A DNA stretch of 64,000 bases from Lysobacter spongiicola DSM 21749. GTDB taxonomy: Bacteria; Pseudomonadota; Gammaproteobacteria; Xanthomonadales; Xanthomonadaceae. Positions 14,652-28,446 of the stretch are shown piece by piece. Each line of letters opens with the position of its first letter. Position 1 is the first letter of the stretch. Below the pieces are notes generated by a model, which worked only from the letters and a program-made list of their open reading frames with translations, searched no databases and was not told the DNA's origin. The stretch lies in NCBI RefSeq assembly GCF_900167055.1, contig NZ_FUXP01000001.1:372001-436000 (forward strand). Reading direction: 5' to 3'. The translations under genes were made by a program, and so were the position numbers.

Positions 14652-15006
14652 GGGGGTGCACTGGCTTCGACGGGGGTCGCGAAATCGCTTGGCGCATGCC
14701 GAGGGGGTAGCTTTCCTCGTAAATCCAGCTGCAAACTTTTAGTTGCCAACGACGACAACTACGCACTGGCCGCTTAAGGCCTAAGCCCCGAAACCGCTTG
14801 TGTCCGTGCTCGCGATGTAGGGTCATTTATCACGGAATCGCCGGGAGTGGCTGCCTGCCAGCACCCGGTTAACACACAGCAGGCTGGTCCGCCGATGCGC
14901 TTTGCGCACCGTGCTGTCGGTGGATGAGATCCAACGGTGAGCTAAGCATGTAGTGCCGGGGATGGAGTGCCTTCGGACGGGGGTTCAATTCCCCCCACCT
15001 CCACCA
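14652..15006 (+). ncRNA. ssrA: Transfer-messenger RNA (tmRNA)
   Basis: Rescues stalled ribosomes together with SmpB. The 5' end GGGGGTGCACTGGCTTCGAC is the conserved tmRNA start. Its first seven bases pair with CACCTCC just before the 3' ACCA, forming the alanine-type acceptor stem. The T arm is GGGGG-TTCAATT-CCCCC. The resume reading frame at 14745-14777 encodes the degradation tag ANDDNYALAA followed by TAA, with GCC as resume codon. Total length is 355 nt, normal for a one-piece tmRNA. Confidence 0.98.
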
Positions 15007-15047
15007 ATTCAAGCTCCACGCAGTGAAGCTCCAAAGCAATCAGGACG

Positions 15048-15082
15048 AGCCGGAATCCGCAAGGGTCCCGGCTTTTTCTTTT
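15048..15082 (+). terminator. Rho-independent terminator of ssrA
   Basis: Stem AGCCGG (15048-15053) with CCGGCT (15068-15073) followed by TTTTCTTTT. It lies 42 nt past the tmRNA 3' end. Confidence 0.8.
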
Positions 15083-15094
15083 CCCGCCCGGGGC

Positions 15095-15478
15095 TCACCG
15101 GAGCAATGCCGTCACCATTGCGAATCCGAGCCAGGCTGCGAGCAGGCCCAGCCCCACGCTCGCGCCTGTGTACATCGCCGCCAGCAGCGGTTCGCCCCGC
15201 CGCAGCAGCGACAGCGCATCGAGTCCGAACGCCGAGAACGTGGTGAACCCGCCGAGCAGGCCGGTGAACACGAACAGCCTCGCATCGTTGCCGAGCACCG
15301 GATGCCGATCAGCCAAACCTGCCAGCAGCCCCACCACCAGGCAGCCCAGCACGTTGACTGCGAAGGTGCTCCACGGGAATCGCGCGTGGGGCGCCAGCTG
15401 CAGGACGAGGTTGCCGAGGGCGTAGCGTGCAACGGATCCGATGAAGCCGCCTAGACCCACAAGGATGAGTGCTTTCAT
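15095..15478 (-). CDS. crcB: Fluoride exporter CrcB/Fluc
   Basis: Dual-topology dimeric fluoride channel of the inner membrane. The 127-residue protein has four TM segments and the family motifs GGFIGSVARYALG (11-23), PWSTFAVNVLGCLVVG (about 35-50) and FTGLLGGFTTFSAFGLD (about 71-87); the latter two contribute pore Asn and Phe residues. A -10-like TAAAGT sits 6 nt before the ATG. I saw no fluoride riboswitch upstream. Length and fold match the family. Confidence 0.95.
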   Translation of the reverse strand: MKALILVGLGGFIGSVARYALGNLVLQLAPHARFPWSTFAVNVLGCLVVGLLAGLADRHPVLGNDARLFVFTGLLGGFTTFSAFGLDALSLLRRGEPLLAAMYTGASVGLGLLAAWLGFAMVTALLR

Positions 15479-15484
15479 CCGGCC

Positions 15485-15490
15485 ACTTTA
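15485..15490 (-). promoter_or_regulatory. -10-like hexamer directly before crcB
   Basis: TAAAGT on the minus strand ends exactly 6 nt before the crcB ATG, the spacing expected for a leaderless transcript. No Shine-Dalgarno is seen. Confidence 0.45.
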
Positions 15491-15505
15491 CCCGCGGCAC
15501 CGCAA

Positions 15506-15949
15506 TCAGTGCCCAAGCAGTTCCAGCTGGCAGCGAAGCTGCTCCGCGTACGCTTCCCGGTCCTGCGCGCCCGGCGTGTGCGGCGCGCGTGGATATACCT
15601 GCAACATGCCGTCACCGGTCCGGCGCGGGTGCACGTGGAAGTGCAGGTGCGGCACTTCCTGGCCTGCCGCCTCGCCGATCGAATGCCAGAGACTCAGTCC
15701 GTCATTCTGGAACCTCTCCCCCACCGCCCGTGTCACGCGGACCAGCATGGTCATCAGGGCAGCTCCAGTTGCGGTGTCCAGCTCGCGGATGTCCTGCAGG
15801 TGCCGCCGCGGAACCACGAGCACATGGCCCGGATTGAACTGCCGCAGATCGATGAAGGCGACGGCCAGCTCATCTTCGCACACGATGCTCGAGGGTCCGA
15901 CCCCGGCGACGACGGCGCAGAACGGGCATCCGCCAGGGGATTCGCCCAT
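15506..15949 (-). CDS. HIT-domain nucleotide hydrolase/transferase
   Basis: Histidine-triad protein of 147 residues starting MGESPGGCPFCAVV. The Cys pair CPFC near the N-terminus and the catalytic HLHFHVHP near residue 97-104 (HxHxH) are clear, with GHVLVVPRRHLQDIREL before it. HIT proteins hydrolyse nucleoside phosphoramidates or dinucleotides. The start ATG overlaps the stop codon of the upstream membrane-protein gene (TGATG), so translation is probably coupled; no separate ribosome site is visible. Exact substrate unknown. Confidence 0.88.
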   Translation of the reverse strand: MGESPGGCPFCAVVAGVGPSSIVCEDELAVAFIDLRQFNPGHVLVVPRRHLQDIRELDTATGAALMTMLVRVTRAVGERFQNDGLSLWHSIGEAAGQEVPHLHFHVHPRRTGDGMLQVYPRAPHTPGAQDREAYAEQLRCQLELLGH

Positions 15950-16461
15950 CAGTGCCGTACCGGACGGCGCATCAGCGCCGCAAGCGCGAGTCCTGCGCCA
16001 AGCGCGGCGTAGATGCCGCCCATGGAGCGCGCCGGGAGGTGTATTTCGAAGCCTGGCGTGAGCCGCGTCGGCACCAGGTGGTAGTCCACCAGGTAAGCCG
16101 CCGTGGTCACGGCCGCCGCCGCTGTCAGCGGGTGCGGTGGCCGGCGCCTCGCCAGCAACCATTCGAATCCGGTGGCCCAGAACACGGTGCTGGCATGGTG
16201 GATGGCCACGCCCGCCGCGGTATGCCGCAGGTCCACCTCATGGCAGCGTCCGGCGGATTCTCCCCAAAGCACATGGCTGGTAGCGTTGGGGGCGCTGGCG
16301 AGGCTGCCGGTGCGTCTCCGCGCAAGCAGCGCGAAGGCCAGGCCCGACGCCGCGGCGGCTATCGTGCCCGACCCCACTGCACGGCGCAGGAGGCCGCCCC
16401 AATCAGGCGGCTCGGCGCCTTTGGATGGCGAAAAGATGTGCTGCTGAGGATGCGTCGCCAT
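15949..16461 (-). CDS. Uncharacterised membrane protein (paralogue of the 18385-18810 gene)
   Basis: 170 residues with about four hydrophobic segments. The ATG follows a strong AGGAGG. I do not recognise a named function. Shared with the gene at 18385-18810 are NATSHxxWG, IHHASxVFWAT and VPxRLTPGFExHL, in the same order and spacing, so the two are paralogues about 2 kb apart in opposite orientations. The conserved His-His and Asp-Tyr positions within membrane segments suggest a functional site rather than simple structural conservation. It is coupled to the HIT gene downstream. Confidence 0.8.
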   Translation of the reverse strand: MATHPQQHIFSPSKGAEPPDWGGLLRRAVGSGTIAAAASGLAFALLARRRTGSLASAPNATSHVLWGESAGRCHEVDLRHTAAGVAIHHASTVFWATGFEWLLARRRPPHPLTAAAAVTTAAYLVDYHLVPTRLTPGFEIHLPARSMGGIYAALGAGLALAALMRRPVRH

Positions 16462-16564
16462 GCGAGTCCTCCTGATGCATCAATGGCGGAGCCGAGGTCG
16501 CAGGCTGCACCCCGGTCCGTAAAGCGCACGTGTTGCCGAGCGGAGCATCAGCCTCAAGACACCC

Positions 16565-17032
16565 TCAGTACGGTTTGGCCACCATCAGGTAGAAGATCAC
16601 GAGGAACGCGGCAAGAGCCGGGAATCCGAGCGTGGTCCAGATCCGGAACCGCCGCCAATACTCCGGTGGCAGCGGCTCGCCCGCCGCATCGGCGGCCGCG
16701 GCGATGTCCCTCAGGCGCACCTGCAGCCACACCACGGGCAACCAACAGGCAGCGGCGAACACGAACAGGATCGTGGACCAGACGATCCACTTCGCGCCAA
16801 GGGGCACCCCCATCAGGTGGGCCAGGTAGAAGCCGCTCACCGGCTGCACCACCATGGTGGTCGCGGTGAACAGCCAGTCGGCGATCACCACCCAGCGCGC
16901 GACGACCGCCACGGCGTGCACGTCCCGCGTCCTGCTGACGAAGAACAGGTAGAAGGCGGTGCCGATGCCCGTCCCGAACAGCATGGTCGAGGACAGGATG
17001 TGCAGCCACTTCACCACGAAGTACTCGGTCAT
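16565..17032 (-). CDS. DUF2269 integral membrane protein
   Basis: 155 residues with four predicted TM helices. It starts MTEYFVVKWLHILSSTMLFGTGIGTAF (motif in parts: KWLHILSST and FGTGIGTAF), contains TMVVQPVSGFYLAH, and ends FPALAAFLVIFYLMVAKPY. This matches the DUF2269 family. Its start overlaps the stop of the SDR-DoxX gene by 4 nt (ATGA), and GGAG precedes it, so the two are co-translated. Pairing of DUF2269 with SDR-DoxX proteins recurs in proteobacteria; I know of no assigned biochemical role. Confidence 0.85.
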   Translation of the reverse strand: MTEYFVVKWLHILSSTMLFGTGIGTAFYLFFVSRTRDVHAVAVVARWVVIADWLFTATTMVVQPVSGFYLAHLMGVPLGAKWIVWSTILFVFAAACWLPVVWLQVRLRDIAAAADAAGEPLPPEYWRRFRIWTTLGFPALAAFLVIFYLMVAKPY

Positions 17033-18321
17033 GCGCGCTGCTCCGGGCGGTCCAGCTCATGCAGCAACCAGATGGCCGCCAGCAGCGGGATGTTCTTCAG
17101 CACCGGGCCATAGGGGTGCGCCCAGAACTCCGGCAGCCACAGGGTGATGGCGAAGGTGTACCCCAGGATGAGCGCCGCTTGGAGCCTGTAGACGAGCTGC
17201 CGGCGCAGGCCCGGCCACAGCATCGCGACGCCGAGCACCAGATCAAGTAGCGCCGCGCCGTACAGCGATATCCATCCCGTCGTTCCAGTCAGGCCGGTGC
17301 GGGCCAGCAGGCCCAGGCTGTCGGGTACCGGATACACCCACAGGGAGACGACGGCGGTAACGACCCACATCAGCGCCAGGGCCACGCGCAGGACCGGCAG
17401 GAGCCAGCGCAACTGGGCGCTGCGCCTCACCTCGCCGGCGCTTGCGGATTCAAGGAAGTCCCCGGGATCTAGCGGAGGCCTTCCGATCAGGCGTACCAGC
17501 GCGTCCGCGGGTGCACAGTTGCCCCGTTCGAGCATCTTCAATGTATCTGGATTGCCGATGGATCCGGGCACCTTCCCCATCAGCCACACGCCGGCCCTGG
17601 ACAACCAACCGGGCACCGGCACTACGACTCTGCGCCGCAGGCCCATCGGTGCCGCCAGCGCATCGAGATAGCCGCGCAGGGTCAGCGGACGCGGGCCGAC
17701 GACGGCCACCGTGGCGGGCGGCTCCGCGGCAGCGACCGCGGCCACCACGGCTGCGCATACATCATCCAGGTGCACCGGCTGCAGGCATTGTGGCCCGCCC
17801 CGCGGAAGTGCGAGCGCCGGCATCGTCGCCAACATGGTGAACCATCGGGCACTGGGCCCATGGGCGGAGAACACCAGCGACGGCTGCAGGATGCTGGAGG
17901 ACACGTCGAGCGACACCAGGCACCGGTCGGCCTCGCGCTTGCTGCGGTGGTAGTCGGTTTCGGCGTCTTTGTCGGCGCCCAGCGCCGATATCTGGACCAC
18001 GCGCCGTACACGCATTCGCGCGCAGGCTTCGAACAACGCGCAGGGCGCGCGCACGTGAATCGCCTCGAAGGTCTGGCTGCCATGCGAAGAGAGAATCCCG
18101 ACGGCATTGATGACCGCGTCCACACCCTCGAGCCGCGGCAGCCAGTCCGACGCGGAATGGTCGGTGAGATAGTCGATCCCGACCGCGTCGATACCCGGCC
18201 AACGGCGGCTGGCGGCAGCGACGTCGCGCACGCCCACCACCACGTCGTGACCGGCGCGCCCCAGCGCATCCACCAGGGCACTGCCGAGGAAGCCGGTGGC
18301 GCCGGTCAGCAGGACTCGCAT
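17029..18321 (-). CDS. SDR-family NAD(P)-binding protein fused to a DoxX-like membrane domain
   Basis: 430 residues. The N-terminal half is an atypical extended SDR with Rossmann motif TGATGFLGSALV (about 7-17), VINAVGIL, ISALGADKDAETDYHRSKREAD (Tyr and Lys of a YxxxK motif, here YHRSK) and a substrate-domain region to about 285. The C-terminal ~125 residues hold four TM helices of the DoxX-like family, from LRWLLPVLRVALALMWVVTA to PLLAAIWLLHELDRPE. The fusion suggests a membrane-anchored oxidoreductase acting on a lipid or quinone-like substrate; that is inference. It is coupled by ATGA to the DUF2269 gene and divergent from a paralogous membrane protein gene. Confidence 0.85.
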   Translation of the reverse strand: MRVLLTGATGFLGSALVDALGRAGHDVVVGVRDVAAASRRWPGIDAVGIDYLTDHSASDWLPRLEGVDAVINAVGILSSHGSQTFEAIHVRAPCALFEACARMRVRRVVQISALGADKDAETDYHRSKREADRCLVSLDVSSSILQPSLVFSAHGPSARWFTMLATMPALALPRGGPQCLQPVHLDDVCAAVVAAVAAAEPPATVAVVGPRPLTLRGYLDALAAPMGLRRRVVVPVPGWLSRAGVWLMGKVPGSIGNPDTLKMLERGNCAPADALVRLIGRPPLDPGDFLESASAGEVRRSAQLRWLLPVLRVALALMWVVTAVVSLWVYPVPDSLGLLARTGLTGTTGWISLYGAALLDLVLGVAMLWPGLRRQLVYRLQAALILGYTFAITLWLPEFWAHPYGPVLKNIPLLAAIWLLHELDRPEQRA

Positions 18322-18384
18322 CGTGCTGCCGACCCTGGTCCGAGCAACAGCTGGGCTCCGTGGAAACGCGCGCTGCGCCGGGCA

Positions 18385-18810
18385 ATGGTGTCCGGGGCCG
18401 TGGCAAGCGCGCTATGCACCGTGGTGGTCTCGCTCGGGGCGCGGGGCGTCGGCCGGCGCCCGGCACGCGGCACCAATGCCACCAGCCACTGGGTCTGGGG
18501 AGATGCCGCCGCCGACCAGGACCCTGCGAGCGTGCGATACACGGCGGTCGGCTACCTGATCCACCATGCCAGCTCCGTGTTCTGGGCGACCTTCTACGAG
18601 CGGTGGTTGCTGTCGCGGATTCCGCTGTCCAGGCGGCCGGCCATCGCCGCTGCCGCGATGGCCGGCGTGGCCTACACCGTCGACTACAAGGTGGTGCCGC
18701 GTCGGTTGACCCCAGGTTTCGAGTTCCACCTCTCCAGACCCTCCATTCTCGGCGCGTACGCGGCGTTCGCCGCGGGGCTGTTCCTGGTTGCCGCCACGCG
18801 CCGCCGCTAA
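18385..18810 (+). CDS. Uncharacterised membrane protein (paralogue of the 15949-16461 gene)
   Basis: 141 residues from the first ATG in frame; homology to the 15949-16461 protein continues upstream of this ATG (WAPWKRALRRA resembles the paralogue's DWGGLLRRA), so the true start may be an upstream non-ATG codon overlapping the divergent SDR promoter region. Motifs NATSHWVWG, IHHASSVFWATFYE and VPRRLTPGFEFHL align with the paralogue. Several hydrophobic helices. Function unknown. It is divergent from the SDR-DoxX gene with a gap of only 63 nt. Confidence 0.7.
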   Translation: MVSGAVASALCTVVVSLGARGVGRRPARGTNATSHWVWGDAAADQDPASVRYTAVGYLIHHASSVFWATFYERWLLSRIPLSRRPAIAAAAMAGVAYTVDYKVVPRRLTPGFEFHLSRPSILGAYAAFAAGLFLVAATRRR

Positions 18811-18924
18811 TACCGATATGTGGCGCTCTGCATTTCGCCTCCCTGCCCGCCCGTGCGTCACCGCGGCGGGGAAATGTTGTCCCACCTTCGCGCAGCTGCG
18901 CGTGAAGCCTTTGGAGAAAAAGTC

Positions 18925-19476
18925 TTGAGCGAGTCGAGCCGCACTCCCGTCCTGCTGATCGTGGACATGATCAACCCGCTCGACTTTCCGGGTGGGGCCT
19001 CGATGCGGCCCCTGGCCATCGAAGCGGCGAAGCGGCTGGCCAAGCTCAAGAAGCGGTTCCGCAACAGCGGCCGTCCGGTGGTCTACGTCAATGACAACTT
19101 CATGGACTGGAAGGCCGACTTCAAGGAGATCGTTGCGGTGGTGGGCCATGACACCCCGGGCGCTCCGCTCGCCGAGCTGCTTGCTCCGGAACACGATGAC
19201 TACTTCGTACTGAAACCCAAGCATTCGGGCTTCTACGAGACGCCCTTGCCGACGCTCCTGGAAAAGCTGCAGGCAGGCCGGCTGGTGGTCACGGGGGTGG
19301 CCACCGACGGCTGCGTGCTCGCGACTGCCACCGATGCGCATATCCGGGAGTTCGACGTGCACGTGCCCCGGGACTGCGTTGCCGCCATCAGCACCGAACG
19401 CACGGAGCGTGCGCTGGCGCTGATGAAGGCCTCAATGCACATCGATGTGCGGACCTCGCGCTACGTCGATCCATGA
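18925..19476 (+). CDS. Isochorismatase-like cysteine hydrolase
   Basis: 183 residues of the isochorismatase/nicotinamidase fold. I place the start at a TTG with GGAG 8 nt upstream, giving a protein that opens SESSRTPVLLIVDMIN as family members do; in-frame ATGs at 18820 and 18874 would add a non-homologous leader. The catalytic triad is visible as Asp14 (IVDM), Lys99 (PKHSGF) and Cys130 (ATDGCV), with the conserved cis-peptide region GVATDGC. It probably hydrolyses an amide or carbamate; the substrate is not predictable. Its 3' end overlaps the opposing small membrane protein gene by 16 nt. Confidence 0.82.
   Translation: MSESSRTPVLLIVDMINPLDFPGGASMRPLAIEAAKRLAKLKKRFRNSGRPVVYVNDNFMDWKADFKEIVAVVGHDTPGAPLAELLAPEHDDYFVLKPKHSGFYETPLPTLLEKLQAGRLVVTGVATDGCVLATATDAHIREFDVHVPRDCVAAISTERTERALALMKASMHIDVRTSRYVDP

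Positions 19477-22845: not shown

Positions 22846-22861
<16 letters not shown>
21122..22861 (-). CDS. Hybrid histidine kinase, REC-HisKA-HATPase-REC
   Basis: 579 residues from a GTG that overlaps the end of the upstream kinase gene by 16 nt and follows a GGGGGTG stretch. Domains in order: receiver 1 (about 15-130; KILLVDDQPG and LLDVNMPGMDG), coiled coil (140-210), HisKA with LATLAHELRNPLAPLQNAL, HATPase_c with LLNNAAKYS, VRDAGIGLTPEE and GGLGIGLTLVRRL, and receiver 2 at the C-terminus (VVVADDNRDAADT, FLDVGMPGMSG). No TM segments, so it is soluble. It may receive phosphate through receiver 1 from the large upstream kinase; that is inference from operon order. Confidence 0.9.
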
Positions 22862-28284
<5,423 letters not shown>

Positions 28285-28446
28285 GCGTGGCTCCCCCCGA
28301 GCTGTCTGTGGCCAAAAATCAAAGCAAAATAGCCTACCCCGCGTGAGGGCGATTTCACACTTTTCTAACAGGAGCGGCCGGCCGGGCCACCCGGGGCGCG
28401 TGTCCCGCCCACGACGCCTGCACGTCCGCTGCAGCAAAGTGCACGA

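Follow-up and report, generated by a model that had tools for sequence, protein, structure and literature searches.

We analyzed a window of 64,000 nucleotides from Lysobacter spongiicola DSM 21749 (contig NZ_FUXP01000001.1), to which all coordinates refer. The locus comprises the following features:

14652..15006, plus strand: ssrA (tmRNA; ARAGORN; Rfam RF00023, 202.3 bits)
15007..18946: lineage-specific stretch with the CrcB, HIT, A, DUF2269, SDR-DoxX and B genes (comparison with three genus mates)
15095..15478, minus strand: CrcB-like protein, final gene of the minus-strand run (PF02537, E 8.5e-29)
15506..15949, minus strand: HIT-domain protein, its ATG overlapping the stop codon of A (TGATG; PF01230, E 2.4e-24 on 15506-15943)
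15949..16461, minus strand: protein A, 170 aa, second family copy, downstream of DUF2269 on the same strand (BLASTP against B)
16565..17032, minus strand: DUF2269 four-helix membrane protein, ATGA overlap with SDR-DoxX (PF10027, E 5.8e-61; model pLDDT 92.0)
17029..18321, minus strand: SDR (NDUFA9-like) fused to DoxX_3, 430 aa (Pfam; PDB profile search)
18355..18384, plus strand: homologous stretch 5' of the ATG of B, without a canonical start codon (A-to-genome alignment starting at 18355)
18385..18810, plus strand: protein B, 141 aa from the called ATG, belonging to an unnamed family of four-helix membrane proteins; gene divergent from SDR-DoxX (BLASTP against A; model)

The Pfam matches and the sequence itself bear out the earlier note in placing a DUF2269 gene and an SDR-DoxX gene between A and B, and the ATGA overlap of the two inner genes can be read directly. 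The B gene is divergent from the other three, whereas A, whose ATG is preceded by the ribosome-binding-like AGGAGGA, belongs to a minus-strand run (SDR-DoxX, DUF2269, A, HIT, CrcB) because its stop codon overlaps the HIT start. The start of B is uncertain, given that family homology reaches about 10 codons upstream of its ATG.

Similarity to three genus mates (L188, L189 and L190) ends at 15006 and resumes at 18947-18952, so that a 3.9-kb stretch directly 3' of ssrA is missing at this site in these genomes; in a fourth genus mate (G009), there is no ssrA within the 19 kb examined. The module lies beside ssrA only in the window and in genome G024, and we rejected such proximity as a general rule because no tmRNA was found in the 60 DUF2269 loci scanned. 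Phage or mobile-element cargo was rejected as well: none of the 33 pattern-matching stretches in viral contigs was confirmed. PADLOC returned no match to any of the four proteins at E 0.1, and, in a PHROGs search with A, B and DUF2269, the DUF2269 protein matched phrog_33833, of unknown function (E 9.1e-5), all other matches being at E 0.075 or worse.

The SDR-DoxX fusion and the DUF2269 protein

The protein encoded at 17029-18321 matches PF13781 (DoxX_3) over residues 316-418 with 96.9 bits, above the curated cut-off of 25 bits, and its SDR half matches the Epimerase profile with 58.8 bits (cut-off 20.9). The SDR motifs are largely intact across the SDR alignment, with G7, G10, G13, S112 and K128 present in 40 of the 40 aligned sequences and Y124 of the Tyr-x-x-x-Lys motif in 33. 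Among the best 60 of 146 matches in the PDB profile search, the top one is 9g83_P (E 3.4e-40, positions 3-266), which is labeled only as an NAD-dependent epimerase/dehydratase, followed by chains of the complex I 39-kDa subunit (NDUFA9), which start at E 3.1e-34 and dominate the top; the first SDR outside complex I is ylbE, at 5e-15. By this comparison, the SDR half is of the NDUFA9 type, with its closest kin among solved structures, within those best 60 of 146 matches, in that family. The complex I 39-kDa/NDUFA9 proteins are NADPH-binding accessory subunits that are not known to be catalytic. The likeness to NDUFA9 is this proximity of the SDR half in the profile search; the window protein differs in that its chain continues into a DoxX_3 membrane domain, and the aligned SDR sequences mostly keep Tyr-x-x-x-Lys. 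The fusion to DoxX argues against a role as a complex I subunit.

The DUF2269 protein matches PF10027 over residues 6-154 of 155 with 205.4 bits (cut-off 28 bits). Compared with HemJ (17 of 25 loci retained after a motif filter), DUF2269 aligned end to end over 138 columns with P 1.7e-4 but with an HHalign probability of only 24% (13% with a narrower alignment), whereas five control pairs gave P 0.05 or worse over 4-25 columns. Pfam lists no match to UPF0093 (HemJ) up to E 10 in 16565-17032. In this alignment, the two families share K-x-x-H in TM1 and a C-terminal K-P; the W..K-L lysine of HemJ is, by eye, not seen in DUF2269, and the host has separate HemJ genes of its own. In a structural comparison, the DUF2269 model matched designed bundles, apolipoprotein E and cytochrome chains (Z 9.8-15.1), which we read as generic four-helix packing; HemJ and PuuD are not among the structural matches listed. 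According to passages of one paper (PMC4562309), DUF989 (PuuD) is distantly similar to DUF2269 by HMM comparison (E 0.15) and PuuD carries a cytochrome c domain, which DUF2269 lacks; a passage of a 2020 review states that HemJ has no known cofactor (PMC7242693). The TM1 histidine of DUF2269, H11, is kept in 37 of 37 sequences, along with many other invariant polar residues.

These features bear on a rather unlikely alternative, in which SDR-DoxX and DUF2269 form a carbonyl- or quinone-modifying reductase, or an NDUFA9-like NADPH scaffold, without transmembrane electron transfer, and the small family aids membrane insertion or substrate access. The proximity to the complex I chains among the best 60 of 146 matches fits this proposal, and the catalytic Lys (40/40) and Tyr (33/40) are what a working reductase would have; a scaffold, however, would have no use for conserved catalytic residues, and the invariant polar residues of DUF2269 exceed what packing requires.

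An unnamed family of four-helix membrane proteins

Proteins A and B are paralogues, identical at 70 of 141 positions (50%; BLASTP E 1e-32). This likeness goes well beyond generic transmembrane similarity, which the earlier note had named as a possible refutation, and the three motifs it singled out (NATSHxxWG, IHHASxVFWAT and VPxRLTPGFExHL) are indeed present in both proteins. Neither matches a Pfam or NCBIfam family above cut-off. The B model (pLDDT 96.3) contains long helices at 2-21, 50-76, 85-103 and 118-140, so that B is confidently predicted to be a four-helix membrane protein. Foldseek found no solved structure matching the model at E 0.001 or better, and the best VIA-align match, the RyR3 repeat domain (Z 4.3, rmsd 3.8, 105 aligned), is level with unrelated proteins at Z 4.0-4.2; by these comparisons, the B model appears to have no clear match in the PDB, which does not make its fold new. 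The suggestion that all four proteins are membrane-associated agrees with the predictions: the models of B and DUF2269 are helical membrane-type bundles, and within the fusion the SDR half is a soluble-type domain.

After redundancy filtering, the alignments retained 57 of 80 loci (A2), 36 (A3) and 39 (A4). In a 59-row family alignment, H60, H61 and D100 are near-invariant (58/59, 59/59 and 59/59, respectively), yet the second histidine is replaced by L, Q or M in four more distant members. Adjacent histidines are unlikely to ligate one heme, so that, of the ligand roles proposed in the earlier note, heme ligation by the family in particular is unsupported, and a metal site would be hypothetical. 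Protein A, itself one of the 59 rows, has all 11 columns that are invariant across this alignment.

The nearest likeness among small membrane proteins is to DUF1440/DUF6789, and consists of weak DUF1440 matches in 3 of the 59 family members (best E 0.035) and a weak DUF6789/DUF1440-like gene that adjoins the family gene in Bosea; neither A nor B matches DUF1440 (PF07274) in Pfam. Sequences of DUF1440 are scarce (weak matches in 2 of 60 genomes and in 0 of 185 in another set), too few for a profile comparison.

A recurrent gene pair with an optional third gene

The SDR-DoxX and DUF2269 genes both adjoin the family gene in 59 of the 80 nearest loci, SDR and DoxX forming a single reading frame in all 59 and the family gene being divergent, as in B, in 56. 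The recurrent pair consists of an SDR-DoxX_3 fusion and a four-helix DUF2269 protein, with a third gene that is mostly divergent from the SDR. Adjacency extends across Lysobacterales, Burkholderiales, Nitrosomonadales and Bosea. Convergent layouts (G149, G437 and Bosea) and same-strand layouts (L083, L086, L087 and G498) also occur, so that one shared divergent promoter cannot explain the adjacency. In Lysobacterales, the distance between the extracted SDR start and the family core ranges from -21 to 66 nt, which leaves little room between the genes. None of the module loci showed the family fused to a partner, and, beyond the three module genes, any one neighbor cluster recurs in at most 15 of the 80 loci.

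Of 398 Pseudomonadota genomes drawn evenly, 10 have the family, and 9 of these have DUF2269 within 2 kb (in G055, it is a divergent paralogue with one gene in between), compared to 94 of 398 genomes with DUF2269 overall (hypergeometric 1.4e-5, relatedness ignored). A single-order draw of 250 genomes yielded the family in 12, with DUF2269 within 2 kb in 7 and anywhere in 9, against 55 of the 250 overall (8.7e-5). Conversely, 85 of the 94 DUF2269 genomes in the Pseudomonadota draw lack the family. Pairwise distances of the three proteins correlate across 58 loci (r 0.77-0.82), shared ancestry being part of this. The wider core is the SDR-DoxX and DUF2269 pair, and the family is an optional third gene. 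The predicted functional unit is therefore well supported as gene linkage of the three families, and the profile check suggested in the earlier note shows that the family mostly does travel with these partners, but the idea that two flanking copies belong to the unit is unsupported: a second copy was found in none of the 80 loci, within the stretches examined.

Both partners are missing in 20 of the 80 nearest loci, 9 of these being Methylocystaceae at one site; loci L066 and L080 have less than 1 kb of upstream sequence. Among 74 plasmid records with the family, 65 of which are Sinorhizobium, the partners are missing in 5 of the 6 profile-scanned loci, which indicates a branch of the family without partners. 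Such loci favor the view that the family acts on its own as a small membrane protein related to stress and that its adjacency to SDR-DoxX and DUF2269 reflects co-inheritance without a shared complex: the plasmid copies stand mostly alone, and genes for Mn catalase, ferritin-like proteins or hemerythrin occur in some neighborhoods. Given that the adjacency is kept across Lysobacterales, Burkholderiales, Nitrosomonadales and Bosea, and in convergent and same-strand layouts, we consider this view unlikely.

The second family copy at this locus is probably a local extra. No second copy is found in the other family-bearing genomes of the Pseudomonadota and single-order draws, and genome G498 has a single copy at the same position in the gene run as A. 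More than one copy occurs in two plasmid records, far apart in each: in Comamonas endophytica, 593 kb separate two copies with equal scores, and in Sinorhizobium terangae a single full match is accompanied by partial pieces at two other places, at distances of hundreds of kb. No extra plasmid copy flanks a module in the loci that were read (L015). In the family tree (built without L056, a 7-residue extraction), A is placed beside its genus mates (93/73), and B lies close to Tahibacter and G024 (96/67); both places are inside one Lysobacterales clade, but separate and weakly supported; the SDR and DUF2269 trees (21 rows each, of 65 and 66) leave the window sequences unplaced. That A and B associate as a lineage-specific heteromeric pair is suggested by the intactness of both proteins, the 11 invariant columns in A and their location within the same lineage-specific stretch, but appears quite improbable given the lack of a second copy in the 80 loci and in the other family-bearing genomes of the draws, and the tree places fit two single-copy histories equally.

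A putative membrane oxidoreductase

The reading we favor, at a probability of about one half, is that the module is a membrane-bound, NAD(P)H-dependent oxidoreductase with the family as a recurrent third gene. The SDR half would draw NAD(P)H from the cytoplasm, as suggested by the glycine motif, Ser112, Tyr-x-x-x-Lys and a conserved Arg32, and DoxX together with DUF2269 would make up the membrane part, through which electrons or hydride equivalents would reach an acceptor in the lipid phase or the periplasm. The redox cofactor may reside in DUF2269, whose TM1 K-x-x-H and C-terminal K-P also occur in HemJ. Protein B would be an optional subunit with a conserved polar face (N31, S34, H35, H60/H61, D100, R107 and E113) opening on one membrane side, the periplasmic one judging by a mild charge bias. 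Protein A, an extra copy in the same gene run, could form a heteromer with B or an alternative form.

A heteromeric membrane redox complex of an NDUFA9-like SDR, DoxX and HemJ-like DUF2269 is plausible. Against the favored reading, SDRs normally deliver their hydride to a carbonyl group rather than to heme. The fully specified version is doubtful. In it, Pseudomonadota would have a transmembrane redox complex not described before, in which the NDUFA9-like SDR-DoxX oxidizes cytoplasmic NAD(P)H and electrons pass through DUF2269, as a HemJ/PuuD-like heme protein, to a periplasmic catalytic or acceptor site of the four-helix family, with two alternative or heteromeric forms of the complex here. 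Passages of two papers describe DoxX-SodA-SseA of M. tuberculosis as a membrane oxidoreductase complex (PMC7907618, PMC6930017), and the likeness lies in a DoxX-type membrane anchor of a redox complex countering oxidative stress; here, the SDR is fused to DoxX, the partners are DUF2269 and a new family, and SodA and SseA are absent among the seven typed proteins between 15095 and 19476. By analogy, protection against oxidative or envelope stress would be the most likely role.

Although both DUF2269 and the SDR-DoxX fusion are recurrent in Pseudomonadota, they are hardly mentioned in the literature searched, and the passages naming DUF2269, in two papers, do not describe this gene set. Since distantly related species often have the unnamed family next to this pair of genes, the four neighbors here resemble components of a membrane enzyme that has not been described. 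One gene unit would thereby bring together the NADPH-binding fold of NDUFA9 from complex I, stress proteins of the DoxX type and membrane proteins similar to HemJ, and its tie to a third, unnamed family makes for a testable membrane oxidoreductase.

Gene layout and kinship of the flanking proteins

Two small membrane proteins, A and B, flank an SDR fused to DoxX_3 (SDR-DoxX) and a DUF2269 (PF10027) gene; we refer to the latter two, with or without a gene of the family of A and B, as the module.

18385-18810, + strand: B, divergent from SDR-DoxX
17029-18321, - strand: SDR-DoxX, first in the minus-strand run
16565-17032, - strand: DUF2269
15949-16461, - strand: A, after DUF2269 in the run
minus strand: HIT protein, start codon inside the stop codon of A
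minus strand: CrcB, after HIT in the run

The kinship of A and B and the ATGA overlap of DUF2269 (16565-17032) with SDR-DoxX (17029-18321), both claimed in the earlier note, are borne out, the two proteins being 50% identical (E 1e-32). Neither A nor B matches Pfam or NCBIfam above cut-off, and the commonest Pfam match among 59 aligned relatives, TMEM164 (4/59, best E 0.0063), is read as chance, so that the family is unnamed in both databases. In the family tree (92 rows), A and B both fall inside a 20-row Lysobacterales clade (support 97/89), A grouping weakly with genus mates and B, also weakly, with Tahibacter and G024, a Pseudomonadota genome; the SDR and DUF2269 trees did not resolve the position of the window.

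Homology of B runs upstream of its start, yet without a canonical start codon there (18322-18385); in several Lysobacterales loci, as extracted, the distance between the start of the divergent SDR and that of the family core ranges from -21 to 66 nt. The SDR-DoxX start (18306-18321) resembles, on the opposite strand, the sequence just upstream of the start of A (16460-16475; 16-nt inverted match, 94%); this may be chance, or what is left of a second SDR that formerly lay divergent to A. Elsewhere in the window (GC about 67%; host genome 3.1 Mb), a very large histidine kinase/response regulator (22846-28437, 1863 aa by ORF) contains numerous repeats, each about 92 residues long and almost identical to the others, HAMP-like by eye.

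Linkage of the family to DUF2269 and SDR-DoxX

A scan of GTDB genome contigs yielded 364 relatives, and the best 80 loci were kept for neighbourhood analysis; as the closest relatives, they are a biased sample. SDR-DoxX and DUF2269 are both present at 59 of these 80 loci, by tblastn and by profile, so that, among the closest relatives, the family is not found mostly without these neighbours, the outcome that the earlier note had named as refuting its functional unit. By the same two methods, one locus (L093) has DUF2269 without SDR-DoxX and 20 have neither partner; nine of the 20 are Methylocystaceae with a common set of other neighbours, and the partnerless L066 and L080 have <1 kb of upstream sequence. 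The layout of B, with the family gene divergent from SDR-DoxX-DUF2269, occurs at 56 of the 59 module loci, and all module genes share one strand at three (L083, L086, L087). No second family copy was found in the examined stretches of the 80 loci. Among 60 relatives' genomes, seven have a family match, five of these with the full module; G055 has a match without SDR-DoxX there, and G016 a weak one that the profile did not confirm.

Two genome draws are less biased than the 80 closest loci. The Pseudomonadota draw (398 genomes) contains 10 genomes with the family and 94 with PF10027. Comparison of the place lists shows nine of the ten to have a DUF2269 no more than 2 kb from the family gene: G000 (the genome whose HemJ genes are given as the host's), G024, G281, G349, G383, G415, G149, G437 and G055, where a divergent DUF2269 (E 3.6e-13) is 0.8 kb away with one 173-aa reading frame between; none was found within 2 kb in G305. 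The second draw, 250 genomes from the order to which G383 belongs, has five family-bearing genomes in common with the first; 12 of the 250 have the family and 55 have PF10027, with DUF2269 within 2 kb in seven of the 12 (G383, G415, G349, G498, G512, G573, G281), at 6.6 kb in G536, as a partial match far away in G650, and not detected in G305, G483 and G579. Tests of co-presence, which ignore relatedness, gave 1.4e-5 (Pseudomonadota) and 8.7e-5 (order).

At the 30 best-scoring DUF2269 places of the Pseudomonadota draw, SDR and/or DoxX occur in the flanks (about 1.5 kb) at 24, fused in one reading frame at 19 of these, and the family gene at four, so that SDR-DoxX with DUF2269 is the more widespread core, to which the family is an addition. 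In G281 and L093, the family gene adjoins DUF2269 with no SDR found, so that DUF2269 is the family's most constant partner. In G498, SDR-DoxX, DUF2269 and the family gene follow in that order on one strand, the last taking the module position of A.

On a Bosea plasmid (L014:5491-6938), the family gene faces DUF2269 and SDR-DoxX; it is annotated with about 170 additional N-terminal residues, and the gene after it is weakly DUF6789/DUF1440-like. On a Sinorhizobium terangae plasmid, a match split in two pieces (L191:8001-8365), with other matches far off on the same record, is possibly a broken family copy.

The genomic site after ssrA

Similarity between the window and three genus mates extends through ssrA (tmRNA), ending with it at 15006, and resumes with the isochorismatase gene (at 18947 or 18952). 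The 3.9 kb directly after ssrA (15007-18946) carries CrcB, HIT, A, DUF2269, SDR-DoxX and B, whereas two genus mates (G003, G004) have about 110-140 bp there and the third (G005) has an alcohol-dehydrogenase-like gene in about 1.4 kb; the stretch is thus lineage-specific at this site. The module lies elsewhere in the genomes of G003 and G004, and 5.6 kb after ssrA in G024.

The isochorismatase-like hydrolase (18820-19476) adjoins the module in the window, and seven Nitrosospira loci (L042, L046, L054, L056, L071, L077, L103) have a relative adjacent to the module, while L105 has one close to the family gene. At eight of the 80 loci (L028, L039, L047, L056, L071, L077, L091, L103), a relative of the alcohol-dehydrogenase-like protein of G005, at 72-74% identity, is encoded no more than about 6 kb from the family gene.

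Predicted folds and a putative membrane oxidoreductase

The AlphaFold2 model of B (pLDDT 96.3, pTM 0.90) has four long helices, with conserved polar residues in two of the loops (1 and 3) and two of the helices (TM2 and TM3). Mean charges per sequence are +2.46/-0.61 for loop 2 and +3.47/-1.22 for the C terminus, compared with +2.59/-2.88 for loop 1 and +2.73/-1.15 for loop 3, which mildly favours a periplasmic conserved face.

DUF2269 is likewise modelled with four long helices (pLDDT 92.0), and its invariant residues include K8, H11, T16, Q63, P64, W82 and S86. Its profile aligns with that of HemJ (UPF0093) over 138 columns (P 1.7e-4; 5.1e-4 with a narrower alignment), compared with P values of 0.05 to 0.98 for five control pairs, which align over 4 to 25 columns; because the HHalign probability is just 24% (13% with the narrower alignment), we treat this possible kinship as a lead. 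G000 has two HemJ genes (C11:49979-50425 and C14:53252-53647), the second scoring lower. Sources disagree on HemJ: one has it likely using plastoquinone (PMC7133116) and lists among its references a 2018 paper whose title calls HemJ a b-type heme protein, and another describes it as not purified and with no known cofactor (PMC7242693). The DUF989 of PuuD is distantly similar to DUF2269 (E 0.15), according to PMC4562309. For the SDR half, a PDB profile search placed 9g83_P first, followed at the top by chains of the complex I 39-kDa subunit (NDUFA9).

The literature searched yielded no account of the module: two papers there name DUF2269, none names it together with a DoxX-like protein, and none names NDUFA9 together with DoxX. 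Linkage, domain types, residue conservation and predicted folds are shown for the module, which we suggest would act as a membrane oxidoreductase dependent on NAD(P)H; in it, DUF2269 would be a candidate redox carrier and B an optional subunit. By analogy with DoxX proteins, as presented in PMC7907618 and PMC6930017, and from a few neighbourhoods, the module may have a role in stress.
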